From a virus: a stretch of 24,308 nucleotides of DNA. Location of the stretch: positions 1 through 24,308 of the IMG/VR virus record IMGVR_UViG_3300021087_000077; one strand, written 5' to 3'. Shown here in pieces: positions 3,479-24,217 of this stretch (positions are counted from its first letter, which is position 1; each line of letters begins with the position of its first letter). The notes beneath the pieces were generated by a model, which worked only from the letters and a program-made list of their open reading frames with translations, did no database searches and was not told where the DNA came from. A program made the position numbers and the translations under genes.

Positions 3479-3695
3479 TTACCTTCTCTATTAATGTATG
3501 TAATAAATTTTTAATTTCACTTACTTCATCCTTTAATGTATTTATCTCGTTCTTCTGAACCTTAAATGTTTCTCTTCTTCTTTTATGTAGTTCATAAGAA
3601 CTCATATCGTTACTTACTATTGCAGTTGAACTCTCATCTCTAAGTAAATTTGAGTGTCCCTCTACTTGAATATACCGAGTCTTAACTGTTGCCAT
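3471..3695 (-). CDS. Small coiled-coil virion-associated protein
   Basis: 74 residues starting MATVKTRYIQVEGHSNLLRD. The N-terminal half resembles a small conserved protein found next to the DUF4815 gene in T4-like marine phages (recalled, not searched). The C-terminal half, from about residue 38 to 72, is a charged heptad-rich helix likely to form a coiled coil. I chose the ATG at 3695-3693 because it overlaps the stop of the giant upstream gene as TAATG and removes an atypical MYCDCI extension that would start at 3713. Its end overlaps the following fibre gene. It may link or trimerise fibre or baseplate parts, but that is inference. Confidence 0.75.
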   Translation of the reverse strand: MATVKTRYIQVEGHSNLLRDESSTAIVSNDMSSYELHKRRRETFKVQKNEINTLKDEVSEIKNLLHTLIEKVNG

Positions 3696-6600
3696 TATGC
3701 AATCGCAATACACCTAAGTGCAGATACCATTGGTACTACTGATGTATTTGTTCCTTGTCCTACTATTTTAATTGAGAATGCACTGAACTCGTTTAAGTCG
3801 TCTGTAGTGAACTCATATTCTTTAAAGTTTCTCGCATCTGCTTCTGTTGTTGTATCAGGAGCACCTGTAGTGTTGAAATACTTCCAACCCAAATCATCAA
3901 ACGGTGTTTCGTCATCATTATTAAGAACTTTATATAAAACTTTTAATTCTGTTGTTGGTGGTCTAAAGAAGTCTGCTGTTACTCTCAGTCCTTGTGCAGG
4001 AGTCTTTAAAGACACTTTTCTAGTGATGTATGTCATAACATTACTATCACCGTCAGGTTGCGTAGAATCGATATATGTGGTTCCTGTAGGTACATCTGAA
4101 GAACTATCAATATTATTGATTCTGTTCATAATACCTAAACCACCAATTGTTGCAACATCTATAACAGGTGATATATTAGGATTATTGGAATATAATTGCA
4201 GTCCAACTTCAAATGATTTAACACCACTCATGTTGTTCGTTTCATTAATTGGTGATGCAATCACACTTGGGTGCGAGAACCATGAGTTATCATTTAACGT
4301 AATGGGTTTTGATGTAGTGCCTTTAGTGTAAACTGTTCCACTTATAGAACCTTCAGGTGAATACATTGGAGTAGTTTTAACTGTTGCACTTATCTTAGTT
4401 CCTTGTGCAGAAATATTAGGTATCATTGTGTGTAGTGTATCAAAGTAAAAATCTCTTGTTGCTGTAACACCACCAACAACTATTTGTTGATTGTAAGTGG
4501 CACTGTCAGAATCATCATCTTTAGCCCATTCCCTTTCTCCACCACCTACTGTTGATGCAGTTGCAGTGTAACCAGTTTTAAAGTTGTATGCAGACAATGA
4601 AGGAGTTACGCAGAATGTATCTATTCCGATATTCTTCAATGCATTGAATGATGCGTTTATAGCGTCAACTGGCATTCCACCTAGTGTATCACCAACTGAA
4701 TTTATTGCAACAGCTAAATCACAAGCACCATTATAGTTTGTACATACTGCGTTGTTATCAGTTGTTTTGTATCCTGAGCCAGGATTTGTGATTTTTGTTA
4801 CAATAGATGAACCTGAACTTGATACTACAATTTCAACCGTCATACCCGAACCTGATCCACCTGTAACTGCAGGAGTATATGTTCCGTCTGCAGGAGTTCC
4901 GCCACTGTTTGTTGCAGTTATTGTTAATACTGAACCTGTAGTGTCCCCTTTTACATTTGCAATTGTAGTGCTTGAACTAGTGTGATACATACCGTGTGAG
5001 TAAGCATAAACTTTAACATAGTCTTGACCTGAGAATGTTTGTATTGGATTATCTTGTATTATCTGAGTAGGTATGGCCGCATTGTCAAAAGAGACATAAG
5101 GAATCTTAGTTGTATCAAATACACATCGTTTCAAATGGAATTTTAAGTCGTCTGTTTGTTCTGCAGTCCATGTACTGTTATTTTGTGATTTAAACAATGA
5201 ACCTGCGTATGGTTGTTCTGCGATTGTTTGTCCTGTTGCAAGGTCTTTCTCACCCATTCTTGATACAAAACAGTTGTACGAATCTGAGTTAGTGTAAACT
5301 ACGAAACAATACTCGACCCCATCGTCCAAGTATACAGGTGATTCGAAAGTAAATGTTGTTGCAGTTGAACCATCTGTTGAAGTGTTGACATCAGCAGGAT
5401 TCTTTGTTATAGTAGAGAATGGTACTACTACATTTGCAGGATAACCATTATGCATTGTTCTGATTTCTACAGAAACAGGCAAGGTGTCATCTTTAGTTTG
5501 GAAGTATAAGTCTACTGAAGACATAAACATACCACCAGTTGAATCTATTAAGAATGATTGTGCAAGTGGGTCTCTCCAACCTCTCATTTCTCTGAAATCC
5601 ATCCATCTATCAGGTTCCCATAAATCCATTTCATCAAGAGCTCTGCCTGGGCCACTAGGTGGGGCAGGCGGGAACCCACCACCTGTAACTGGATCAGGTT
5701 CCGTTGTATCAACTGGAATTGGTGGTGCATCTTCGTCTACTGGGTTTACGTTTATTGATTCCCCTCTTGAAATTATGTCTCTTTGTTCATTCATTTGTTC
5801 GTAAACAACTCTACCATTTCTTGTAGAAGTAATTTCGGTTTGAGACGATTGCAATAGTCCTTGTGCTTGATAAACTTCAGCACAAGCAGATGCAGGGTTA
5901 GGTAAGTTATAAAAACTTGAAGTTACTCTCATTTCTCTCATACCAGTTGCAAAGCTTTGCGTAGGATTATTAGGTAATTCAAAGTATGCTCTTATTCTAC
6001 CTGCTCCATCTGTTTTACAATGTGAACCAACTGAGGTTCCATTGTCTTGTGAATATGTTGTACTGAAAGGTCTAACATATGCATTTACATCTATACTATC
6101 AAAGAAGAAGTAATGGTTTGTGTTTGGTTTTAAGTTTTCACCGTCAAGTGTAATTGTTCTTGCTCTACAGAAAGGAATAAGAGTAACACTTACTATTCTA
6201 TCCCCTCTAGTTTCAACAAAGTCCTCTACGACACTTGTTGTTACACCTGTTCTTGTTTGTGTTTCTACAGTTTCAGTAATCTCTCTAGTTACTTCTTCAC
6301 CTGCTTGCCACTCACCACCTTGTGTTGGGTCTCCTGACCAAGAACCATTTGAAGTTGACTGAACTTCAGTTGATACTACAGTAGGTTCTCCGACCCATGT
6401 TGTTTGCCATGCGTTCCAAACTGTTCCTAATGAATTTTCTACTGTAGACTTAATTGCATCAAAGTTACCTTCTCTGTTAATTCTTACTTCAGGAAGTTGT
6501 GTAGTGTCATGCCATATATCTGTTGCAGGCGATAACTTAAGTGAACCCATGAATGAGAATACACTATAAGGGTTAACATTACTTATTCTAGAAGCTTTAT

Positions 6601-9600
6601 CTGCGTGTACAAAGGTTGATTCTGTATATGGTAGTGTAATTAAATCACCAGTCTTCTGATAACTGGTAGAAGAAGAAGTGTTTAACTCAATGTCAAAGAA
6701 TGATTGATAAGATTGTGGTCTCATTGCACCCGCTTTAACATCTATCGCACATTCGTAATCAGGGTGGGTTACATCACCAACCCTATGTCCTCTGAAGTTA
6801 TCCACTAGGAAACCTGATTTAAATCTATCAAATCCGTCTCCATCTAAAATCTGTTTTGTTTGAGTGTCTCTTTCTAGTAAAGATAGAGAAGTAACTCTTT
6901 CTAGGTTAGTAACCCTGTTATTAATTCTACCAATATCACTCATGGTAAATCTACGGTGGTCTTTAGACCTAATTCTTATGTTCTTTAAATTCTTTGTGAA
7001 AGGTGGAATGTAAAGGTCAAACATTTCAATACTGTCATCGACTGATTTTGGTTTAGTTGGTGATAATGCAGGTGTTCCTTCCGATATTTGGAACTTACCT
7101 GATTTATGTAAGAACACTTTATCATATCTACCAACGTAGAATGATATATCACCCACCACACTTGACCCTGATACTGGCATATCGTTTGTGTTTGTATTAG
7201 TCTCAGCAATACCTGTTCTTGCACCTAAGAAACTTCTACCTGTAGTATACCCGAATGGTGAGTAAACAGCACCGTTAGTGCTATGTGATAGGTCTACTGG
7301 GTTTGTTACGTCTTGTGCGTTGTTAGAACCAAAAGTAGTTGTTCCAATAATTTGTCCTACAACTGGTCTAAAGTCAACACAATCTGAAAGTTCAAATGTT
7401 CCATCAGGTTCTAAACCACCTAAGTCCACTCTACTTGGTGAATATACTGGTATATCTTTATATTCTATCGCATTATATGAAGATACATCAAAGTAATCTC
7501 CTGCACCTGAAGGTGTGAAATAATCAAATACTATTAGAATTTTATTATTTGGTTTTGGAGCTCCAGTCTTTAATGTTAATTTCCCAATGTCATAGTATCC
7601 GTCTCTTTGACCATTGTCAAAGAAGTATCTTGACATAATATTTTGTCCACCTGCAGTTACATTACTTAATGTTGCAATTGCATTTGAAGTCTGACCAACC
7701 ACATTTTCAGTATTTACTAATGTTCCTGAGATATAGTAGAAGTATGTTGTTCCACCAGTTGCAATAATAATTGCGTGTGCGTTAGAAGTTTGACCTATAA
7801 CAGTTTCATAGTTTACAAAAGAACCTGAAGAAACTGTAAATGTTGCACTTGGTGGTAATGGTGTAGTTGCACCACCTGTTGCTTCATAAATTCCTCGAAT
7901 CTTATGTACGTCTGCAACACCTAGTGATATTTCTTCATCGTCATATGCAGTTCCGTAGTATCCATTGGCAACCCTATTACTTTCTACTCCAAGACATCTT
8001 GCACTTCTTAATGTCTTACTTCTTGAAACTGGGTCTACAACATTTGCAGTATATGTAATCTTAAGAACTGCATCATTATTGTTTACGTTTATATTACTAA
8101 CTGCTAATGTTTGACCTGAACCACCACCTGAACCACTTACGTTTGTGGTCATATCTTCTATGTTTAGAAGGTCTCCTTTAGAGAAACTTCCACCAGCTTT
8201 CTCTTCTGCAACTGCGATTGTAAAGTTATCAGTATTTAAAGCAGCAAAAGTTCCGTTACTAATTGAAATTGAGAAAGCACCTGAACCAATCTCTACAGTT
8301 GTTTGTCTTCTTATTTGTATTGATTCACCATTGTGGGTTTTAACCCAATCTCTTGGCCATGATGCAATTGCAGCTGTTTGGTCTTGATTGAATACTCTTA
8401 CCCTTCTTCGTGTACAATTTGCGTTGGTAAGGTTATTACCAGTTCCACCAATAGTAGCGGCTATATCACTTGTTATTGATGCAACCACTCTTTCAACAGG
8501 CGGAACTGCCCCATCCATAATGATGTCGCCTTCTTTAAGTTGTGTAGTAAATTTTGTTCCGAAACCTGTAAGAGCAGTATTACCAGTAATAGTACAACTA
8601 CCTGTTAGTGTATTGTCTTGGTCTGCATAAATGTCTGCAGTAAAGATTTCTCTTGCACCATTAAGAGGTGTTTGTGTAACTGACCTTGCACGGTCAATAT
8701 TATATGTTCTAACTGCAGTAACGTTTGCGATTACAGCAGTATCGTTTTTTCCGACTGCTGATATAGCATCTGCAGCTGTAAATGTTCCTACAACGTCATG
8801 AACTAATATAGATGCAGCTCCAGCGGAAGCTGCAACTGCGACTATCCCTGTTGCACCTGAAATAGAACCTACAACCTTATCACCTACAGCAAAAGCTGCA
8901 GTTGCAGTTGTACCTGTAATCTTTGTAAACATCTTAATATCGAAAAGGTACAGTTGGTGTCTAGATGCATCAGTATAAATTCCTGAAGAAGATGTACCAG
9001 TATCTAAATCGATATTTCTTACTCTTGCAAGTCCAATCTGACCTGAAGTAGGTTTAGTTCCACCTACAGGACTGGTCACTGGAATTGTAGAATCCCATAT
9101 CTCTATTGGTTTAAATGGTTCAGTACTATCTTCTCCACCCTCATTTCCAAACTCAGGAAGTGAGTGTGCATTTTTAATCTTAATGTAATTACCTATTCTA
9201 ACAGGAGTATTTGCGTTGTCTAAGCTTGTTGCATCTCTTGCTTTCTTAAATGCAATTGTTGATGTTCCAACTTTATCAATCTCATATCCTTTAACATATG
9301 CTTTACCTGGCGACACTTGCATAACAAATCTATCTTCAGTTCCACCATTTACTTTAGTGTAGAAACCTCTGTTTGTAGTGTCGTCTAAGTGTTCTCTTAA
9401 ACTATGCGTGAATTGTTGTGTAACGAAATCACCACTCGCATCGAATGTTCTTCGTGCCATTGTGTTTTCGATTGCACCGTAAATTGGTTTGTTGATTGCG
9501 ATTTCAATAATACCTTTATTGACTCGAATCAATTCAACGAAATCTGTATCGTCTGTAGTAGTAAGTGAGTACTTACTTAATGCTAACTCTATTTTTAATC

Positions 9601-10375
9601 TATCTGCACCTGAAGAGTTCTCGTTTGAAGTACCTTGTGAATTATCTAATAGAGAAGTATCAGATACTTCACTGATTAGTGATTCTTTAATAGTAAGACC
9701 TATTCTATATGAAGGAGCTCCTGAATATTTTTCTAAGATAAGTTCTTGTGCTGGAACCTTGATAAAGAATCCTCTTATGAATATAATACCTTCTTTGATA
9801 TTTGCAACAGAACCTAAACCATTTGGGTTGTCTGCATCTGTTTTTGCTTTAACTTCGAACTCATTTTTATTTGCTGTAACAACACTAGGTGTTCCAGTTG
9901 CACCCAAAGTAACCTCTTGTATTTCTTCTACAGGTGTAAATGTGAATGAGTTTTTAGTATCTGTTCCTTGTCTTACATATTTTACAAAAAGAGTAAGTGC
10001 ATCATCTGAAGTTTCTGCAGACGTTGTCATAACTTGTGCAACAACACCTGAAGTTTTTCCTTGATAATATTTTCCTACTGATGCAGTTCTATATGTTTCT
10101 GAGTTTGCATCACCTTCGGCATTTGGGTTTGCAGATTTAACCTTTACATAATAGAGTTCTAAATCAAGTCCTGATTGACAACCTTGAACAATAGACCCTT
10201 CTTTGAATATATGGTCTCCAAATCTTTCGATTTGGTTTTGAAGGATAGATTGGGATTGTATTAATTCACGAGACTGTAACGGTCTACCTGAACGATATAA
10301 TACCTTATGGAAGTTCTTGTCTTCCGAAAAATCGTCATAATAGGGGGATACATTTAAATCTGTCTTTTCAGTCAT
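3695..10375 (-). CDS. Giant DUF4815-type virion structural protein
   Basis: 2226 residues, the largest gene here. The N-terminus (about 8-63) has the signature NVSPYYDDF, then LQSRELIQSQSILQNQIERFG and HIFKEGS, which I recognise as the DUF4815 start of T4-like marine phage structural proteins. A second conserved block near 1135-1200 reads FTMSDIGRINNRVTNLERV, then LDGDGFDRFKSGFLVDNF. Residues about 848-912 hold two tandem copies of a small beta module (ETVIGQTSNAHA and ENVVGQTSNAIA). A Pro/Asp-rich hinge lies near 1545-1580, followed by DPLAQSFLIDSTGGMF at about 1604 and its conserved C-terminal region. An inserted GSGY module sits near 1865. In position it takes the place of the T4 gp9-gp12 group, so it probably forms the outer wedge or a fibre attachment, though the exact structural role is not established here. 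AAGGA precedes the ATG by 4 nt. Confidence 0.85.
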   Translation of the reverse strand: MTEKTDLNVSPYYDDFSEDKNFHKVLYRSGRPLQSRELIQSQSILQNQIERFGDHIFKEGSIVQGCQSGLDLELYYVKVKSANPNAEGDANSETYRTASVGKYYQGKTSGVVAQVMTTSAETSDDALTLFVKYVRQGTDTKNSFTFTPVEEIQEVTLGATGTPSVVTANKNEFEVKAKTDADNPNGLGSVANIKEGIIFIRGFFIKVPAQELILEKYSGAPSYRIGLTIKESLISEVSDTSLLDNSQGTSNENSSGADRLKIELALSKYSLTTTDDTDFVELIRVNKGIIEIAINKPIYGAIENTMARRTFDASGDFVTQQFTHSLREHLDDTTNRGFYTKVNGGTEDRFVMQVSPGKAYVKGYEIDKVGTSTIAFKKARDATSLDNANTPVRIGNYIKIKNAHSLPEFGNEGGEDSTEPFKPIEIWDSTIPVTSPVGGTKPTSGQIGLARVRNIDLDTGTSSSGIYTDASRHQLYLFDIKMFTKITGTTATAAFAVGDKVVGSISGATGIVAVAASAGAASILVHDVVGTFTAADAISAVGKNDTAVIANVTAVRTYNIDRARSVTQTPLNGAREIFTADIYADQDNTLTGSCTITGNTALTGFGTKFTTQLKEGDIIMDGAVPPVERVVASITSDIAATIGGTGNNLTNANCTRRRVRVFNQDQTAAIASWPRDWVKTHNGESIQIRRQTTVEIGSGAFSISISNGTFAALNTDNFTIAVAEEKAGGSFSKGDLLNIEDMTTNVSGSGGGSGQTLAVSNINVNNNDAVLKITYTANVVDPVSRSKTLRSARCLGVESNRVANGYYGTAYDDEEISLGVADVHKIRGIYEATGGATTPLPPSATFTVSSGSFVNYETVIGQTSNAHAIIIATGGTTYFYYISGTLVNTENVVGQTSNAIATLSNVTAGGQNIMSRYFFDNGQRDGYYDIGKLTLKTGAPKPNNKILIVFDYFTPSGAGDYFDVSSYNAIEYKDIPVYSPSRVDLGGLEPDGTFELSDCVDFRPVVGQIIGTTTFGSNNAQDVTNPVDLSHSTNGAVYSPFGYTTGRSFLGARTGIAETNTNTNDMPVSGSSVVGDISFYVGRYDKVFLHKSGKFQISEGTPALSPTKPKSVDDSIEMFDLYIPPFTKNLKNIRIRSKDHRRFTMSDIGRINNRVTNLERVTSLSLLERDTQTKQILDGDGFDRFKSGFLVDNFRGHRVGDVTHPDYECAIDVKAGAMRPQSYQSFFDIELNTSSSTSYQKTGDLITLPYTESTFVHADKASRISNVNPYSVFSFMGSLKLSPATDIWHDTTQLPEVRINREGNFDAIKSTVENSLGTVWNAWQTTWVGEPTVVSTEVQSTSNGSWSGDPTQGGEWQAGEEVTREITETVETQTRTGVTTSVVEDFVETRGDRIVSVTLIPFCRARTITLDGENLKPNTNHYFFFDSIDVNAYVRPFSTTYSQDNGTSVGSHCKTDGAGRIRAYFELPNNPTQSFATGMREMRVTSSFYNLPNPASACAEVYQAQGLLQSSQTEITSTRNGRVVYEQMNEQRDIISRGESINVNPVDEDAPPIPVDTTEPDPVTGGGFPPAPPSGPGRALDEMDLWEPDRWMDFREMRGWRDPLAQSFLIDSTGGMFMSSVDLYFQTKDDTLPVSVEIRTMHNGYPANVVVPFSTITKNPADVNTSTDGSTATTFTFESPVYLDDGVEYCFVVYTNSDSYNCFVSRMGEKDLATGQTIAEQPYAGSLFKSQNNSTWTAEQTDDLKFHLKRCVFDTTKIPYVSFDNAAIPTQIIQDNPIQTFSGQDYVKVYAYSHGMYHTSSSTTIANVKGDTTGSVLTITATNSGGTPADGTYTPAVTGGSGSGMTVEIVVSSSGSSIVTKITNPGSGYKTTDNNAVCTNYNGACDLAVAINSVGDTLGGMPVDAINASFNALKNIGIDTFCVTPSLSAYNFKTGYTATASTVGGGEREWAKDDDSDSATYNQQIVVGGVTATRDFYFDTLHTMIPNISAQGTKISATVKTTPMYSPEGSISGTVYTKGTTSKPITLNDNSWFSHPSVIASPINETNNMSGVKSFEVGLQLYSNNPNISPVIDVATIGGLGIMNRINNIDSSSDVPTGTTYIDSTQPDGDSNVMTYITRKVSLKTPAQGLRVTADFFRPPTTELKVLYKVLNNDDETPFDDLGWKYFNTTGAPDTTTEADARNFKEYEFTTDDLNEFSAFSIKIVGQGTNTSVVPMVSALRCIAIA

Positions 10376-16368: not shown

Positions 16369-18240
16369 TTAATATGTAGAGGAAGACGTAGATTTAAAAC
16401 CTACACCTGCACTACTTTCACCACTTGCGATGGTGTCTACTTCACCGACAACCTTAACATCGGAAGTCGAAATATCAATTAAGATACCTCGTGTCGCAAC
16501 AACATCGTTTCCGTTAGGTATCATGGTGAAGTCAATCGTTGAGTCAACATTAACGGTAGACGTTATGTTAATCGCATTGATTGTAATTAGTCCTGTCGAA
16601 TAGTCAATTGTTCCTGCAGTACTATTCGTATAAATTCTTGTTGACCCTGAGAGATAATATTCTCTTAAGGTTCCTTTTCCGTCATCATCAAAGTAATGGA
16701 TATTGGTTGCATCTCCTAATGAGTAGAAACCAGTTGTAGTTGTTATACCACCATTATCTGCGTTATAACCTGCAGTAGGGTTATAGAATCCATTTCCAAA
16801 TGTGTTAATGTATCCTAGCAATTGGCCAGGCCTAACTTCCATTTTCTTACTAAGTCTTACATTCGTGGTATTACTTAGTATCGCAGAATTAGACTCGTCA
16901 ATTGCATTAACTAAGTTTGAATGTCTAAACACGGAATCGAAGTTTGTTAGATTTGTTGTATCAAACTTACTAATTGCATTAGACACCACTGTTTCTAATT
17001 CTCCTGAAGATAAAGTAGTTGCCCTTTCGTTGTATTTGAAAGTTGTAGATAAAAGAATCTTAATAATTTCTGCATCTACAATTTCAGGTCTTACTGTTAA
17101 CATATTTAATGCATTTAATCTAGACTTGATTGCAGACTTTTCTGAACCTGAAAGATAATCTGAGTTTAATGGTTTGATTGCAAGGAATACTTTTCCGTAT
17201 TGTGGTGGGTCATTATCTTCACCACCCCACACTGCAACTGCATCTGCATTTGGATAATACTCTTTAACCTTTGCTTTGTAGTCATTAAGTGTTACCAATC
17301 TATTTTGTGAAGTATAGAACTTTGTTGCTTTAAACTTTATTGAATCTATATCTTCTTTCTCTGTACCACCTTGTGCGTTAGAAGTTGTCGTGATAGTAGA
17401 ATGTGTATAACCATTTACTGCACTTATTTGTGAGAACGTTTTAATACCATTACAATGAACCGTATCAACTATAATGTAGGTTGCAGTAATAACGTCTCCG
17501 TCTTTAAGAGCGGCACCTAGTGTTCCGTCACCAAAGTAAATCTCTACGAATCCATCTTCGTTTTCTTGCGTGTAATAAACTTCAGAAGTTGTTTTAATGT
17601 CTGATACGTCTGTTGCTTCAGTATATGAAGATGCTATTCCATCTGAGTTAACTGATATTTGTAATTTTGACTTATCAATTCTTGAGTTAGACAGTACAAA
17701 TTTTGGATTCATTGTTTGACTATCAAATATAAATTGGTCTGTTGCATATGTTCCTTGTACTAAATCAACACTTGCGTAGTTATATGTTGAACCATTCTGA
17801 GATGGTTTGACTGTATTAGGAACTACAAAGTTATAGTTAATACCATCAAAATTTGTTTCAAAAATACTTCCTCTTTCCAATTGCATTTCACTAACTGTCG
17901 GATAGCTTCCATCTACATTTCTAACGTTATTGATTGCAATGTCCACGATTGCAGCTGCACACTTTTCTGTCGCAGGTACGAATCCTAAATCCTTTGCACG
18001 AGACACTACGTTCTTTCTGATTTGGGCAGAATCTAAGAACAGTTCACTACCTGCAATGTTTGTATTTACTGCACCAATATGTGATGCATATGCGAGTAGG
18101 TCTACTAGTACCGACATAGTAGAACCTTCAAAGTTATAGTCTTTTAATTTATCTTGACCTTGTAGATATGCTTTTAGATTTTCTCCAATATCATCAAAGT
18201 CTAAATCGGTAACGTTTATTTGTGAACTCTTAATTGCCAT
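16369..18240 (-). CDS. 6: Baseplate wedge subunit gp6
   Basis: 623 residues, against about 660 in T4. The N-terminal LKAYLQGQDKLKDYNFEGS, then VLVDLLAYASH, matches T4 gp6 (LIEWLNGQNEFLDYDFEGS). Downstream blocks also follow T4 order: RKNVVSRAKDLGFVP, then EIYFGDGTLG, FYTSQNRLVTLNDYKAKVKEY and VFLAIKPLNSDYLS. gp6 belongs to the baseplate J-like family; dimers form the ring that ties wedges together around the hub and drives the sheath trigger. The gene starts one nucleotide after the gp25 stop (TAAAATG), so the two are coupled. The C-terminal 120 residues are Gly/Asn/Thr-rich and less T4-like. Confidence 0.93.
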   Translation of the reverse strand: MAIKSSQINVTDLDFDDIGENLKAYLQGQDKLKDYNFEGSTMSVLVDLLAYASHIGAVNTNIAGSELFLDSAQIRKNVVSRAKDLGFVPATEKCAAAIVDIAINNVRNVDGSYPTVSEMQLERGSIFETNFDGINYNFVVPNTVKPSQNGSTYNYASVDLVQGTYATDQFIFDSQTMNPKFVLSNSRIDKSKLQISVNSDGIASSYTEATDVSDIKTTSEVYYTQENEDGFVEIYFGDGTLGAALKDGDVITATYIIVDTVHCNGIKTFSQISAVNGYTHSTITTTSNAQGGTEKEDIDSIKFKATKFYTSQNRLVTLNDYKAKVKEYYPNADAVAVWGGEDNDPPQYGKVFLAIKPLNSDYLSGSEKSAIKSRLNALNMLTVRPEIVDAEIIKILLSTTFKYNERATTLSSGELETVVSNAISKFDTTNLTNFDSVFRHSNLVNAIDESNSAILSNTTNVRLSKKMEVRPGQLLGYINTFGNGFYNPTAGYNADNGGITTTTGFYSLGDATNIHYFDDDGKGTLREYYLSGSTRIYTNSTAGTIDYSTGLITINAINITSTVNVDSTIDFTMIPNGNDVVATRGILIDISTSDVKVVGEVDTIASGESSAGVGFKSTSSSTY

Positions 18241-18241
18241 T

Positions 18242-18664
18242 TTATCTTGCCCTTGTTAATGTCATTTCTATTGCTTGGTTAGCAACACCGTTTTTAATTG
18301 AATAGTGTACTTGTAGACTTACTTCATTTCTATCTACTCCATTGATACTCACCCTGACTCTATGGATTCTTGGTTCAAATGTAGTTAACATGGAAACAAG
18401 TCTCTGTTTTACTTTTCTAATTCTTCTATCTGAAGTTAGTTCAAAAAGCAATTCTCTTATTGACCCACCAAAGTTTGGTTTGAATGGTCTTTCATAATGA
18501 TTAGTTAATATAATGTTCTTAACAGCCCTTTTTACTGCTTCTGCATCGGTTCTCACAACAACATCGCCAGTCTGAGGGTGTTTTTTAAAAAGCAAGTCTA
18601 AATCTGCATATGCTTTTTCTGAGATTGCAGTCTGTTTACTAGTATTGGTTATATCTATTGCCAT
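18242..18664 (-). CDS. 25: Baseplate wedge subunit gp25 (GPW/gp25 family)
   Basis: 140 residues, normal length for the family (T4 gp25 is about 132). It has RAVKNIILTNHYERPFKPNF then GGSIRELLFEL, followed by FEPRIHRVRV, the conserved EPR motif with its preceding helix. The family is also present in P2 gpW and in type VI secretion TssE; gp25 binds gp6 and templates sheath assembly. AGGAG lies 16 nt before the ATG, which is long, and a TATAAATA box sits between them, so the true control of initiation is unclear. It directly precedes the gp6 gene as in many contractile systems. Confidence 0.95.
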   Translation of the reverse strand: MAIDITNTSKQTAISEKAYADLDLLFKKHPQTGDVVVRTDAEAVKRAVKNIILTNHYERPFKPNFGGSIRELLFELTSDRRIRKVKQRLVSMLTTFEPRIHRVRVSINGVDRNEVSLQVHYSIKNGVANQAIEMTLTRAR

Positions 18665-18694: not shown

Positions 18695-20638
18695 TTAAAT
18701 CTTAATTATAGAAACAGACGCTCCTTCTATCGGTGCTGTATCAAATGTTACCGTGTTGCCAAAAATTGTTACTCCACTTCCGTGTTCGTATTCAGTGACA
18801 AGTGGATCGCCTGCGTTAGGTTGCCCTTCAGGAATTTTTCCTGCTGTTACAAATGCGTGAACTGTTCCTGTTCCACTACTAACAGAATATTCTGTTTCTT
18901 CTCCATCTCCTGTTGCAAATGAACTTCCCTCGTCACTTGAAAGGTACGGGACTCCATCCAAAACCACAGTGTTATCTGAAATAGGTTTAGTGTCTTTCTT
19001 AGTTTCTACTACAACTGCAGTTATAACACCTGCAATCGCTGGAATTTTTAAATCAATACTCATAGGCATACCGATTAGTTTTAGGAAGTCACACCATGTT
19101 AGGAACATTATCTCAAAAATTGAACCCAGTCCTATTGCACTAAGAAACTTCTTAACTATCTTAACCCAATCAAACATTATCTTCTTATGCCAATTCATTT
19201 TGAAGTCTTCTAGTGCTAAAAGGATTTCTGAAATTTCTTCTTCGATTGAGGCCGTAGTCGATTCTATATCAACACCTAAAATATCTTTTATACTAAAACC
19301 AAAAATACTGAGTCCTAGTACCTTTTCTCTAATTAGACTTCTAAACTTGCCACCTTCTTCTAATAACTTATTTTCTAAATCCTTTTTCTCTAGTCGTAAT
19401 TCCTCTAACTCTTCCAATTTTTTAAAATAATCTTCATCAGATATATCAGGGTCTGCTAATTCCTCTTTTAGTTTATCCATTTTATCATTTAGTTTACCAA
19501 TATCTGTTTGTAAACTTTCTTTTAGTTCTTCCCACTCGTCTTTTAGAGTCTGTATAGCAGAGTTTACTATTTTCGCAATATCCATACTCATAATGTCGGT
19601 CAGAAGTTGAATAGGTGTATCAGGTAAACCTAACAGTTTCCAAATTTTATCAAAGATACCGATTAATTCTTGGAAAATTGCCATCATCGTATTCTGCACA
19701 TACTTCTTAATTTGAGTTTTGATGTAGTTGTAAATTATCTTTGCCTTTGCCTTATTATCAACTACACCATACTCACCATCAAATTGTCTGAACTCTTCGG
19801 GAACCAGTTGCCAAAATTTATCAATAAATTTATCTTTTAGTTCAGAGATGTCACCAATATCTCCCATTAAGGCTTTCTTCTTTTCAGCTAATGCTTCCAA
19901 CTCTTCCGTTTTCTTTATATGGTCTTCCATACTAATGTCGGGGTCTGCTAATTCTTCTACTAGTTTGTCTATCTCCTCACTAATCTTTTTTATTTCTTTG
20001 AACTTCTCTGCTATTTCTAAATCAAAACTCTTACCTGAAATTTGGTCTATCAACTCTTGTTTATACGCAGGAGAGGTAATCAGTTTTAGGATATCAATCT
20101 GTATTCCCAAAATTGGAACTGAAAAATTAAAGGGAACTATAGAAGAAATGATTTCTGCAATCTTTGTGGGAATGTATGTGTGAAACTCTTGAAGTAATTC
20201 TTCAAAGGCATCTCGTGCCTCTTTTTGCCAGTCACGATTTGGGCCTTCTTTATTCCAATATGGAGATAGTATATCTGCAAGTGTATCAACAAACTCTTCA
20301 ACAGTTTCTGAAACCTCATTAACCTGTTCTTGTATTACACCTTCGATTTGAGTCTTGATAAAATTTTCTTTATCATCTATCTCTTCTAATATTGCAGCTG
20401 TTTCTTCTTCTGTTAAGTCGGGGTCTTTTAATTTCTCGTATAAGTCTGCAATTTCCTTTTTCCTTTCTGCCTTCATCTCTAGGACTTTTCCCTGCATTTG
20501 GCCAGGGATTGCAGCCATTTTATTAAATGCGTTTACGATTTCGTCTTTTGTGGGTAAGGAAAATATATCCCCTTCAGGACACGCTAGTGCTGAGGGAATT
20601 TCTGCCTCTACGGGTTTAACTTCACTTGTTTCAGTCAT
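18695..20638 (-). CDS. Triplicated coiled-coil tail protein, possible tape-measure-like or hub protein
   Basis: 647 residues, no family recognised. Three units spaced about 160 residues apart share a charged helix, a DPD turn and a second helix: KDPDLTEEET at 71, ADPDISMEDH at 231 and ADPDISDEDY at 395. After each comes a hydrophobic helical stretch with short amphipathic strings (FNFSVPILGIQIDILKLI at about 170, IGIFDKIWKLLGLPDTPIQL at 326, FLKLIGMPMSIDL at 518). Residues 550-647 form a separate beta domain (FATGDGEETEYSV ... VTFDTAPIEGASVSIIKI) of the type found in phage fibres. The gene sits between gp5 and gp25, two nucleotides after the gp5 stop. T4 gp29, the tape measure, is about 590 residues, so size fits, but a fibre-like tail is unusual for one. 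Alternatives are a hub connector or a spike-associated protein. Being a tail protein is likely; the specific role is inference. Confidence 0.7.
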   Translation of the reverse strand: MTETSEVKPVEAEIPSALACPEGDIFSLPTKDEIVNAFNKMAAIPGQMQGKVLEMKAERKKEIADLYEKLKDPDLTEEETAAILEEIDDKENFIKTQIEGVIQEQVNEVSETVEEFVDTLADILSPYWNKEGPNRDWQKEARDAFEELLQEFHTYIPTKIAEIISSIVPFNFSVPILGIQIDILKLITSPAYKQELIDQISGKSFDLEIAEKFKEIKKISEEIDKLVEELADPDISMEDHIKKTEELEALAEKKKALMGDIGDISELKDKFIDKFWQLVPEEFRQFDGEYGVVDNKAKAKIIYNYIKTQIKKYVQNTMMAIFQELIGIFDKIWKLLGLPDTPIQLLTDIMSMDIAKIVNSAIQTLKDEWEELKESLQTDIGKLNDKMDKLKEELADPDISDEDYFKKLEELEELRLEKKDLENKLLEEGGKFRSLIREKVLGLSIFGFSIKDILGVDIESTTASIEEEISEILLALEDFKMNWHKKIMFDWVKIVKKFLSAIGLGSIFEIMFLTWCDFLKLIGMPMSIDLKIPAIAGVITAVVVETKKDTKPISDNTVVLDGVPYLSSDEGSSFATGDGEETEYSVSSGTGTVHAFVTAGKIPEGQPNAGDPLVTEYEHGSGVTIFGNTVTFDTAPIEGASVSIIKI

Positions 20639-20640
20639 AA

Positions 20641-21777
20641 TTATGAGTTCGGTTTAAATTCAGGTGCTAAGACCTTCACGTGCTCTGCAGCTGATAAGGT
20701 TAGTTTTTTACCAACTTCAATGTCAAGATTTCCATTTATATCAATCTTACCGTCACTAAGAGATTTGAGTTCTAGTTTTCCTATGGTTTCAATTTTTGCA
20801 TCACCAAGAACTTTAATCTCAACCTTTCCACCAATAAACACTTCTTCGTTTCTACAAATAATAGTGTAGTTGTCATTAACAACTCTAGTTACCTGAGAAC
20901 CATCAGGGTGAATCTCCTGAAAGGTTCCTGACCTATGTGCTATTGCAAGTCTTTCAGCACCCATTGTATCGTCCATTTCTAAAACATGACCCGACTCTGA
21001 CTGTAAAACTTTGTTGTAAGGGTAGACTGGTTTTGCAGGAGATTTTATTTCCTTTTTACTAAGAAGTCTATCTTTTGGTATGGTTCTTTCTTTCAATAAT
21101 TCAGCAATATCAACTTCATCATCACTTCCAGCAAGTTTAGCTAAATCTGACTTGTCCGTGTATAAAGGATAAAAGGGTAAATTATCTTCAGTTATTTCAG
21201 TGTCCGTTATTGTAGAACCTACTCCTGTATATTTAATATCCAAAGTGAATAATGGTCGTGGGGTATCGTCTGCAAGTAGTCCTACTCCAGCAGTAAGACC
21301 AAAGTTCCTTTTACTAGCGTGGTCTGGCTCTGCCCCATCGGGTGTTCCGTCATAAGTTGTGTCTGCAGATGCAATTCCCGTTATACCACCAACGGTCATT
21401 TCCTTATCCCCATGTGTAGTTAACCGTCTTGGGTCATTGAACCCCTTTTCAACCTGTCTTTTGATTTTTTTACCAAGTGCATCTATTTTGTAACCACCTG
21501 CAGGTATTCCTGCAGTAGAACCAATGACCACTGGTTGTTGACATTTTTTTCCGTCTCTAAAAAATAGAATTACCGTAGACCCTTCTACGAGTCCGTGTTG
21601 AGTTCCGAATCCTGATAACCCTGCAGAAGTTGTTGGTAACATAACTTGAGCCCATGGCAAGTCAGGTGATGCAATTTTCTGTTTATCATCTGTATGGATT
21701 CCATGTACACGAACACGAACTCTACCAACCTTTAAAGGGTCTTGTCTATCTTCAACTATTCCGTAATATATTTCCAT
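20641..21777 (-). CDS. 5: gp5-like baseplate spike protein lacking a lysozyme domain
   Basis: 378 residues from the ATG at 21777-21775. The upstream in-frame ATG at 21813 would overlap the hub gene by 35 bp, whereas this start is one nucleotide after its stop. The N-terminal 95 residues (YYGIVEDRQDPLKVGRVRVR, then DLPWAQVMLPTTSAG and GSTVILFFRDG) are the OB-fold of gp5/VgrG spikes. The C-terminal 130 residues (SGHVLEMDDTMGAERLAIAH, then GSQVTRVVNDNYTI, then short repeats GGKVEIKVLG, GDAKIETIG) form the trimeric beta-helix that ends in the puncturing needle. T4 gp5 has a lysozyme domain between these two; the 150-residue middle here is low in complexity and shows no lysozyme motif. The protein presumably forms the cell-puncturing spike with the hub protein encoded just before it. 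Confidence 0.88.
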   Translation of the reverse strand: MEIYYGIVEDRQDPLKVGRVRVRVHGIHTDDKQKIASPDLPWAQVMLPTTSAGLSGFGTQHGLVEGSTVILFFRDGKKCQQPVVIGSTAGIPAGGYKIDALGKKIKRQVEKGFNDPRRLTTHGDKEMTVGGITGIASADTTYDGTPDGAEPDHASKRNFGLTAGVGLLADDTPRPLFTLDIKYTGVGSTITDTEITEDNLPFYPLYTDKSDLAKLAGSDDEVDIAELLKERTIPKDRLLSKKEIKSPAKPVYPYNKVLQSESGHVLEMDDTMGAERLAIAHRSGTFQEIHPDGSQVTRVVNDNYTIICRNEEVFIGGKVEIKVLGDAKIETIGKLELKSLSDGKIDINGNLDIEVGKKLTLSAAEHVKVLAPEFKPNS

Positions 21778-21778
21778 G

Positions 21779-23347
21779 TTAGTCCGCCTCATAGCTGCCA
21801 TCAGATTTCTCAATAAGAGTTTCTATTTCTTCTAATGTAATTTCTTTTGCAAAACTTTCTTTAATACATTCTAATTGTAGAGACCCGTAAAATCCAGGCA
21901 CTTGAAGATTACCAGTAAGACATGAATCTACAACTAAGTACCTATTATCATTTATTGGATCTGTATTGTCCTCACCTCTTGTTACTTCAGGTTCGGGGAT
22001 ATTCATTTTAATAACATCACCTGCTGATATATCAGTTCTTATTGGTAAAATTACAACGACTCTATGTTGTTTCATTATTTCTTTCAATGCAATTCTTTCT
22101 AATTTAGAATTGTCTTTAATCTTATTTCCTTTAAATGCTTCACTAGATTCGAATGTGTTGTTATCAAAATCATGATTAGTATTGTAATCATAGGTAACTA
22201 AAGAGTCAGGTATTTTGTTGGGATATTGCATTCCTGCATAGTTAAGTTCTTTTACTGGTGGGCTCGCCATTTCCTGCCAATCGATGTCTCCTGTTGTACG
22301 TGCTAAAAATATACTTTTTTCACTTTCATCAGTTCTTATTAAAGGAACTGCATCTTCTGAAACATGACTACCATCTTTTCTATTGAAGGTTTCTAATATA
22401 TCATATATATTAACCGATTCTATTTTTGTAATTGGGTCATATACTTTCTGAGTTGATGCATAAGCACCTGCAACTGTTCCTCTTAAGGTATCAAAAAGTT
22501 GAGGTTTATCTATAGTTAATATTTGTAAATCTTTTGTTCCACCCACTGTATCAACTTCTCCTGCACCAACTTCCAGACCAAGTTCCTTTACCACTTTGGC
22601 CTCTTCTCTCTCTTTACTTTCGACTCCTGCTGTTCCACACATACTTGATAAAGATTGCCATTTAAAGTTATCTCTAAATGTTTGATAAAGAAACATTGAG
22701 TTTCTCCATGAACCTGATTTATTATCAGCATTCTCAGTAACCCAATCTAAAAAAGTGTCTGCTCTCCAATTAGGAATTACAAATTGGTTGTTTTCTGATT
22801 TTGTATGTTCAAAGTGACCAAAAAATTTTTCTTTCCCTTCAGGGCTTATGCCATTAAACCATGCCTGCCCATTTCCCTGTCCCATATCCCAAAAAGCTGC
22901 CGACATCATCTCAGTATAAGAACCCCTGTAGACCTTACTGAGTCTAGTTGTATTTGCTACAAACATCAGTGGGTCGCATAACTTCATTTCATATGTTTGA
23001 GTACCTGCTCTAGGTCTTTGTACGTTGTTGAGTTTATATACTCTAAATATCTTCTCAAGTTCTTGGTCTATTTCATCTCTTTCAGTGCTTATATGAACAC
23101 GAATATGTTCTTGTCCAGTAAAACGATAATTTTTTATTAGGTTTACACTATCTATAAGAGTTATATCTCCTGTAACAAATTTAGAATTAATACTTTCATA
23201 CAGACTGAACCCTGCTGTAATTGACTGTATATCAATCGACTTACCGTCACCATTTACTAAGTGAACGGCTTTTAAATTGAAAGCTTGGTGTGGTGTTGTT
23301 ACGTCTCCCTCAGGCAACTCGACTGGTGTTGTAGAAACTTCTGTCAT
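21779..23347 (-). CDS. gp27-like baseplate hub protein
   Basis: 522 residues. The N-terminal 130 residues (SITAGFSLYESINSKFVTGD then HIRVHISTE and FRVYKLNNVQ) have the strand pattern and position of the first tail-tube-like domain of the gp27/gpD hub family. Residues 180-230 (NNQFVIPNWRADTFLDWVTE then NSMFLYQTF) and the C-terminal 100 residues (VVVILPIRTDISAGDVIKMN then NRYLVVDSCL) fit the later hub domains, which end with a barrel over the spike. It lies directly before the gp5-like spike gene, one nucleotide apart, which matches the gp27-gp5 partnership in the hub. Sequence likeness to T4 gp27 is weak by eye and T4 gp27 is shorter (about 391 residues), so the call leans on pattern plus context. 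A ribosome site TAGGAATAGGG lies upstream. Confidence 0.7.
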   Translation of the reverse strand: MTEVSTTPVELPEGDVTTPHQAFNLKAVHLVNGDGKSIDIQSITAGFSLYESINSKFVTGDITLIDSVNLIKNYRFTGQEHIRVHISTERDEIDQELEKIFRVYKLNNVQRPRAGTQTYEMKLCDPLMFVANTTRLSKVYRGSYTEMMSAAFWDMGQGNGQAWFNGISPEGKEKFFGHFEHTKSENNQFVIPNWRADTFLDWVTENADNKSGSWRNSMFLYQTFRDNFKWQSLSSMCGTAGVESKEREEAKVVKELGLEVGAGEVDTVGGTKDLQILTIDKPQLFDTLRGTVAGAYASTQKVYDPITKIESVNIYDILETFNRKDGSHVSEDAVPLIRTDESEKSIFLARTTGDIDWQEMASPPVKELNYAGMQYPNKIPDSLVTYDYNTNHDFDNNTFESSEAFKGNKIKDNSKLERIALKEIMKQHRVVVILPIRTDISAGDVIKMNIPEPEVTRGEDNTDPINDNRYLVVDSCLTGNLQVPGFYGSLQLECIKESFAKEITLEEIETLIEKSDGSYEAD

Positions 23348-23362
23348 GATATAACCCTATTC

Positions 23363-24217
23363 CTAACCATTACTCATTAATCTTTCAAACTCTCTTAATA
23401 CAGAAGTTATTTTTGAAGGAGAAATAATTTTAATTAATCTTTTCTTCTCATTCTCTTCATATTCTTCAGTATAATATGTAACTGGGCTCCACCCCGAACC
23501 ACCATAAGTTCGCCTGTTTCCTGTTGAGTCAACGTAATGGTGGACTCCGTCTTTTGCATCTGAAACTGAATCTACTGTAAAAGAAAGATTAGTTCCATCA
23601 ATGATTTCTTGTTGCCACTGTTCGAATGCAGTCCTATCGTCAGGTATCTCTTCATTTTCTAACTTTGCAGTAGAAAGCTTTGTACTAGAAACCATAACGT
23701 CAGTTGCTTCAATAATATCACCTTGAACAACTAAACGATTGAATGTTGGGTCAACAGATTGCACACTTACTTCTTTAGTTCCTGATGTAAGTGTCTCTCC
23801 GATTAGAATCTTGTTGTCGTGTTTCCAACCGAGAGGATTACTACTGTTAACCAGTTTAGTGTCATAGGTAGGTGTTGTAACTATATCACTAGAATTTACT
23901 ACAATTAGATTTTGTCCTTGATACTTTTCTGCGATATAATTTTCAAAAACCTCGAAGTCCATAAACCAGTCATAGTAATTCTCAAAGTCATTAACTAAAA
24001 AGAAAGTCCAATGTAAATCACCGTCACCATATAGTTTACTTGCAACCACATCAGGTCGGTCTCCTTCCATGACTTCATAAGTTTGATATTCAACTATTGA
24101 GTTAAGAGCTGAAGATTCTACTTTTGCTTTGCGAAAGAAATCTTTAATCCTAACAACTTTTCCTGTATTAAGGGTGTACTGTAAAGTAGGGAAATTTTTA
24201 AATAATTGAGTAGCCAT
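23363..24217 (-). CDS. 53: Baseplate wedge subunit gp53
   Basis: 284 residues, longer than T4 gp53 (about 196). Residues 45-80 (YQTYEVMEGDRPDVVASKLY then GDLHWTFFLVND) match the LysM-like core of gp53 (T4: RPEELANAIYGNPQLYWVLL). The C-terminus ENEKKRLIKIISPSKITSVL matches T4 ENEKLRQIKIIAKSDINSFM. The extra length lies between, at about 110-245, and includes a GE-LTSGT-VSVQSVD beta module similar to modules in gp7 and the giant protein. gp53 joins adjacent wedges to complete the baseplate ring. It precedes the hub and spike genes in this late block and starts 1 nt after the stop of the partial gene upstream. Confidence 0.92.
   Translation of the reverse strand: MATQLFKNFPTLQYTLNTGKVVRIKDFFRKAKVESSALNSIVEYQTYEVMEGDRPDVVASKLYGDGDLHWTFFLVNDFENYYDWFMDFEVFENYIAEKYQGQNLIVVNSSDIVTTPTYDTKLVNSSNPLGWKHDNKILIGETLTSGTKEVSVQSVDPTFNRLVVQGDIIEATDVMVSSTKLSTAKLENEEIPDDRTAFEQWQQEIIDGTNLSFTVDSVSDAKDGVHHYVDSTGNRRTYGGSGWSPVTYYTEEYEENEKKRLIKIISPSKITSVLREFERLMSNG

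Follow-up and report, generated by a model that had tools for sequence, protein, structure and literature searches.

In this study, we find that a 647-aa protein encoded next to gp5 is probably the tip protein of the central spike, docked on the end of the gp5 needle; in this bacterial virus a helical protein probably caps the needle tip, where close relatives use quite different structures. Read from the sequences, the case is made by the position of the gene, its exclusion of two other finishes of the needle, a recurrent change of tip, an altered gp5 end and hairpins that are optional among relatives. The window analysed is the whole 24,308-base virus contig, in which no tRNA was found. Its minus strand carries a T4-like tail module with gp53, a hub protein in the gp27 position, gp5, the gene of interest, gp25, gp6, more wedge proteins and gp8, and the gp5-like gene ends 2 bases upstream of the 647-aa gene. 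The first-pass annotation was right in calling this location between gp5 and gp25 unlike T4. After gp8, positions 3695-10375 of the window encode a 2226-aa protein, and at the equivalent place phage C48C1 has a 1661-aa protein with a very strong match to PHROG 358 (function unknown). The features referred to below are as follows.

18695..20638, minus strand: 647-aa protein, proposed spike-tip cap (stop codon included); ORF with ATG start
20641..21813, minus strand: gp5-like spike protein with OB domain and beta-helix; PHROG 430 (E 4e-76), Pfam Gp5_OB
20644..20658, minus strand: final gp5 residues FKPNS, proposed docking end, without HxH apex
18242..18664, minus strand: gp25-like wedge protein, downstream edge of the slot; PHROG and Pfam profiles
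16369..18240, minus strand: gp6-like wedge protein, basis of the trees; PHROG match
21779..23347, minus strand: hub-like tail protein in the gp27 position; PHROG 350
23363..24217, minus strand: gp53-like wedge protein; PHROG and Pfam profiles
20267..20509, minus strand: predicted helical hairpin 1, residues 44-124 (AlphaFold2); DPD at 20417-20425
20147..20230, minus strand: core long helix 1, residues 137-164, with a conserved W-Q-K-E stretch (alignment and AlphaFold2)
19805..20032, minus strand: predicted helical hairpin 2, residues 203-278 (AlphaFold2); DPD at 19937-19945
19655..19756, minus strand: core long helix 2, residues 295-328 (alignment and AlphaFold2)
19316..19579, minus strand: predicted helical hairpin 3, residues 354-441 (AlphaFold2); DPD at 19445-19453
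19157..19246, minus strand: core long helix 3, residues 465-494 (alignment and AlphaFold2)
18698..18970, minus strand: C-terminal beta domain, residues 557-647, missing from short relatives (AlphaFold2, Foldseek and alignment)

The description of the chain as three helical hairpins with DPD turns followed by a fibre-type beta domain was borne out. DPD occurs at residues 72, 232 and 396 (spacing 160 and 164), and the AlphaFold2 model (mean pLDDT 79.6, pTM 0.65; alignment of 38 rows, 37 of them relatives) places one DPD in the turn of each of three long antiparallel hairpins (H44-69/H77-124, H203-230/H237-278 and H354-394/H401-441), ending in an all-beta part of about 90 residues which probably resembles the N-terminal domain of T7-type tail fibres. 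Local alignment of the thirds of the protein gave a score of 126 for the second against the third (top of 500 shuffles, 69), 75 for the first against the second (equalled by one of 500 shuffles) and 61 for the first against the third (equalled by two of 500); the DPD hairpins are thus more alike than expected by chance, clearly where units 2 and 3 are concerned and marginally in unit 1. With the hairpins taken out, profile comparison of the units gave probabilities of 59% (units 2-3), 26% (1-3) and 3% (1-2), equalled by 1, 0 and 2 of 60 column shuffles, respectively. The internal triplication proposed at first agrees with the hairpins, within these limits, and with the predicted topology, a helical hairpin plus a long helix repeated three times, whereas a true triplication of the core is partly supported, being backed weakly by the sequence profiles. 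Core residues C20, C516 and H153, examined by eye with a metal site in mind, are conserved.

Relatives are scarce among named phages. A tblastn search of 50,697 phage records with the 647-aa protein returned a single record, that of C48C1 (Kyanoviridae), whose homologue of 451 aa (29% identity) lies at the equivalent gene place; this homologue, used as query against named phage records, returned only itself, and our literature search found nothing on phage C48C1. An IMG/VR scan with a four-row alignment yielded 107 relatives, and the analysis went on with the best 80 loci. The 38 non-redundant complete family proteins range from 360 to 864 aa, and in their alignment the core spans are near-constant (72-76, 67-72 and 77-79 aa) and the hairpin spans vary (38-337, 8-100 and 36-108 aa), down to a 360-aa member (locus L083) in which the hairpins are cut down to short stubs. 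DPD is present in hairpin 1 of one row, hairpin 2 of seven and hairpin 3 of eight, and all three occur together in 1 of the 38 rows, the window protein itself, so that the recurring DPD turn, true of this protein, is not a family trait. By this alignment the constant part is a helical core of about 360 aa, to which long hairpins, DPD turns and beta domain are added as accessories, and the hairpins behave as inserts.

The three hairpins may be packed side by side, since their lengths tend to rise and fall together (Spearman 0.66-0.82, n = 36 with the two tip-insert rows dropped, kinship not corrected for). At L035:3182-5203 all three are long, with spans of 92, 100 and 108 aa, as if extended together; hairpins 2 and 3 are the longest of the 38 rows and hairpin 1 is the longest without a tip insert. 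In proteins of the L051/L055 types hairpin 1 is extended at its tip by 258 residues, in place of the mere turn seen in L047, which is otherwise similar; the insert is carried by L051:5250-7835 and, by length, likewise by L052, L053, L055 and L056, whereas L047-L050, which are shorter, do not have it. For L051 and L055, Pfam gave no match above cut-off. The insert does not look coiled-coil-like by eye, and its size suits an exposed tip better than the tail lumen.

The 647-aa protein has no convincing match in Pfam, PHROGs, the PDB or viral fold models. The best Foldseek E values were 0.11 against the PDB and, against viral models, 0.013 (whole chain) and 0.31 (core), none of which we take as kinship; VIA gave best Z scores of 10.9 (single hairpins, whole model) and 4.9 (core), the level of common helical arrangements and no sign of kinship, and sequence profiles against the PDB returned apolipoprotein-like and similar helical noise alone (best E 0.03). 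Foldseek also matched T7-like fibre proteins, including that of P-SSP7, with probability 1.00 but E values of 0.02-0.3 over 80-95 columns; to judge by match length and kind, in a table without ranges, these matches most likely belong to the C-terminal domain. Residues 554-647 had no Pfam match at E up to 1, the T7 fibre N-terminal domain PF03906 included. The family core is absent from 48 gp6-bearing records and five named phages, and in 3 of these 53 records an ORF matches the C-terminal end of the profile alone.

The slot that holds the 647-aa gene is where other T4-like phages keep a PAAR protein. PF05488 at E up to 0.1 detected PAAR in S-CAM1, Melnitz-3 and Syn33 (S-CAM1 alone above the curated cut-off) and a purpose-built profile detected it in P-SSM7, in each case between gp5 and gp25 or immediately before gp25; in Vibrio phage D507 it lies far from gp6. 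By the same PF05488 threshold, PAAR was found in none of 66 records bearing the 647-aa family (16 + 50) and in 38 of 48 gp6-bearing records that had not been selected by the family, 31 of them above the curated cut-off. With the purpose-built profile, no match was obtained even at E 10 among the ORFs of the 80 target loci (best 80 of 107), the window and nearly all of C48C1, nor at E up to 1 in 23 family-bearing records searched whole, which include the complete phage C48C1; at the latter threshold the profile was positive in all five named phages without the family and in one of five further records without it, the four negatives being short. The 647-aa protein had no PAAR match at E up to 1, and the window record had none either. 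PAAR proteins fold as a beta-cone, and the predicted models of the present protein are helical save for short beta hairpins and the C-terminal domain, with no such cone.

For the PAAR count, 48 of 80 gp6 loci had enough upstream DNA. Ten of the 48 lacked PAAR by the script's profile and ten by PF05488, the two lists differing by one, as the script missed PAAR in L162 and PF05488 missed it in L169. The slots of the ten PF05488-negative loci were read individually. Other slot proteins, partly helical or proline-rich by eye and belonging to phages in which PAAR was not recognised, were seen at L137:504-1784, L166:134-1216 and L172:5821-6435. L172 and L245 have a gp5 with HxH plus an ORF in the slot (204 and 161 aa, respectively), and at L160:1-843 the PAAR match lies inside the gp5 frame itself. 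The gp5 end at L152:348-1463 resembles the PAAR-fused end of L160 by eye and may be a PAAR fusion below threshold.

An exclusion between the family and PAAR alone, with one or two origins, was considered and given up: in the gp6 sampling (window and C48C1 queries, at least 1.5 kb upstream; 13 loci dropped for lacking upstream DNA), 18 of the 69 loci (68 + 1) had the family, one had PAAR and 50 had neither. When twelve of these 'neither' slots were read, most had gp5 followed directly by gp25, with gp5 ending in an HxH tail, so that the pattern became a three-way one. In the HxH class, [TSK]HxH lies 17-41 residues from the gp5 end and the median distance from gp5 to gp25 is 24 bases. HxH is described as the iron-binding apex motif of the P2 gpV, phi92 and R-pyocin spikes in PMC6116203 and PMC11448403. 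It is also present in tail fibres, according to PMC6116203 and PMC11705849, and the motif alone is therefore no proof of an apex.

We scored every locus in which gp5 and gp25 are both visible (156 loci) for the 647-aa family, PAAR and a terminal HxH in gp5. The family alone was found in 84, PAAR in 18 and the gp5 HxH alone in 50; none had two finishes, and four had none by script. The PAAR locus L165 had been flagged for an HxH that is internal, not terminal. L234, one of the four script-negative loci, has an HxH tail behind a broken gp5 frame; the others, L152, L156 and L168, have no recognised tip, and a tip may therefore be dispensable or be of further kinds. In no family locus (0 of 84) does gp5 have HxH among its final 60 residues. 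The family gene lies inside the gp5-gp25 slot in 84 of 84 loci and PAAR in 17 of 18, the eighteenth being L160. By source, the window gp6 query contributed 68 loci (17 family, one PAAR and 49 HxH, plus L234), mixed-phage gp6 queries 20 (no family, 16 PAAR, one HxH and three with none), the family itself as query 67, all positive by construction, and named or own records four (three family and one PAAR); three loci occur in two sources and a few contigs are counted twice. Of the 84 family loci, 67 were recruited through the family protein itself, and most of the 84 are related.

The end of gp5 differs with the finish. Among distinct gp5 ends, -NS closes 28 of 39 in the family class, 0 of 18 in the PAAR class and 0 of 22 in the HxH class, and 8 of the 18 PAAR-class ends close with -LN. 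Between the gp5 stop and the start of the family gene the distance is -4 to +14 bases in 72 of 78 loci and 212-247 bases in the other six, with a small ORF in between where inspected. In L068, L069 and L072, gp25 lies about 5 kb from the family gene, with extra DNA between. In C48C1 (L002:18881-19468, L089:42739-43188), gp5 is short, at 196 aa, and about 28 kb from it a separate gene encodes a gp5-type lysozyme piece.

The change of tip is recurrent. In a gp6 tree (quick IQ-TREE run on 71 non-redundant rows, with SH-aLRT as the sole support measure and a warning on long branches meeting), the family needs at least four changes (gains or losses), all four of them imposed by branches with good support, and for the three tip states the number is six; in an earlier gp6 tree without the close sample, two changes were needed and one origin was possible. 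The sister rows L252 (HxH) and L251 (PAAR) have gp5 proteins that are nearly the same up to the outer shaft, and near them L246 and L062 have the family protein, with a gp5 that stops short in -KLNS. L250 and L252 differ from L251 in having an HxH tail and an empty slot, as against a PAAR protein in the slot, on nearly the same gp5.

Since the 647-aa protein replaces both PAAR and the self-made apex, adjoins gp5 and is accompanied by a changed gp5 end, it most simply sits on the end of gp5, and from this we would infer its binding to gp5, its stoichiometry, its exposure on the virion and its role in piercing. One copy or a few would dock, through the helical core of about 360 aa, where the trimeric gp5 needle ends bluntly, and three units per chain would suit a three-fold needle. 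As a PAAR protein does, one chain of three alike helical units could then meet the three-fold gp5. In T4 the ratio gp5C:gp5.4 at the needle end is 3:1, as given in PMC7600766. The three coiled-coil hairpins, side by side, might form an adjustable stalk or collar, leaving the hairpin tips and the fibre-type C-terminal domain exposed, and when the sheath contracts the protein would be at the front of the needle as it passes the cell envelope. It is possible, though here we are more tentative than about the location at the tip, that this is a third and unrelated kind of tip, in which one three-unit helical chain caps the three-fold gp5, that T4-like phages swap HxH, PAAR and helical tips as cassettes, and that the hairpins and end domains are adjustable outer parts which may suit different envelopes.

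The first-pass annotation had pointed elsewhere, to a tape measure whose unit count sets tail length or to a hub connector. Weak PHROG matches to tape-measure families over the helical part (best E 0.001) speak for the former, which is nevertheless hardly credible, as relatives have a separate candidate gene after gp51, some members have stub hairpins, the L051/L055 types carry 258 aa inserted at the tip of hairpin 1, and the slot excludes other spike tips. We accordingly rejected the 647-aa protein as tape measure. The idea presupposed that no separate tape-measure gene exists; a tape-measure-like one is present in relatives, and the window contig stops before the gp51-side region in which it sits. 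We located gp51 in 27 target loci (among the best 80 of 107), and in 18 of these the first ORF of at least 150 aa beyond gp51 has hydrophobic segments (15 complete, 479-703 aa), the remaining nine having less than 800 bases left. Of ten such ORFs tested, five match PHROGs that bear the name tape measure (best E 4e-10), whereas for the other five there was no PHROG match; the five sequences inspected have a charged, helical-looking N-terminal part, and the C48C1 equivalent is annotated 'peptidase'. A probable tape-measure gene thus lies soon after gp51 at L012:4488-6590, L019:426-2396, L052:1849-3921 and equivalents. With the usual helix rise of 1.5 angstroms per residue, a post-gp51 protein of 657-703 aa would reach about 1,000 angstroms, comparable to the A-1(L) tape measure, which has at least 689 residues for a 1045-angstrom tail (PMC10966104).

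The hub connector fares better, in that the hub is the right part of the tail, but the evidence shifts the protein to the tip of the central spike. A related proposal is a hub or inner-baseplate brace, on the side of the spike or at the hub-wedge joint, which needs a plain-ended gp5 and involves no capping; the gene slot within the baseplate operon, a beta domain and tip inserts that fit a scaffold, and the six LysM gp16 proteins that fill the hub-wedge gap in A-1(L) (PMC10966104) all agree with it, and we consider it unlikely mainly for what it leaves unexplained by itself, namely the joint absence of PAAR and HxH and the -NS end of gp5. A protein carried at the tip and delivered by the spike, acting for example on the inner membrane after piercing, is a more doubtful proposition still. 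It is compatible with the tip location, long hairpins of a similar kind occur in many unrelated helical proteins, pore formers among them, and hydrophobic windows begin at residues 160, 494 and 525; however, at 1.6-1.7 on the Kyte-Doolittle scale these windows are borderline, AlphaFold2 does not make long membrane-type helices of the two that lie in the third unit, and the structural matches are generic coiled coils. Finally, the C-terminal T7-type domain, in view of the Foldseek matches and of the same profile end in records without the core, might hold a receptor-binding fibre at the spike or hub, but short relatives, C48C1 included, lack the beta domain, and as the main role of the family this seems very improbable.

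Contractile injection machines need some finish to their needle, and the HxH metal apex and PAAR are two well-described answers. In literature on PAAR tips, the HxH apex and T4-like cyanophage tape measures (mostly without subscription journals), we found no description of a helical tip protein. If the present reading is true, a third, helical tip among close relatives would be a natural experiment on what spike tips must do, would explain a family, nameless in Pfam and PHROGs, of which public virus contigs hold more than a hundred relatives, and would offer a new tip for engineered injection systems.

Among known systems, the PAAR tips (T4 gp5.4, PF05488) share with the 647-aa family the slot after gp5, the mutual exclusion and, as proposed, the same trimeric needle end. 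In contrast to them, the family lacks PAAR sequence, has a predicted helical core instead of a beta cone, bears optional coiled-coil hairpins and, at 360-864 aa against about 100 aa, is about three to eight times larger. On profile searches and predicted fold class the 647-aa protein is not a PAAR protein; it would nonetheless work like one if the tip location holds. The HxH apex of P2 gpV, phi92 and R-type pyocin is another finish of the same needle, and an HxH end is found in near neighbours without the family, but it is part of the spike chain, whereas the 647-aa protein is separate. Tape-measure proteins have similarly long helices and a weak profile similarity; they differ in that relatives have a separate candidate gene for that function, and in that the hairpins of the 647-aa family are optional and some are decorated at the tip. 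The N-terminal domain of T7 gp17 is the likely fold of the C-terminal domain, which in this family is an optional end domain, below Pfam detection. In type VI secretion, PIPY (DUF4150) with its DUF2169 partner is likewise a non-canonical tip on a gp5-like VgrG spike, as described in PMC11883445, yet PIPY still has a PAAR-like fold, whereas the 647-aa protein is predicted to be helical.
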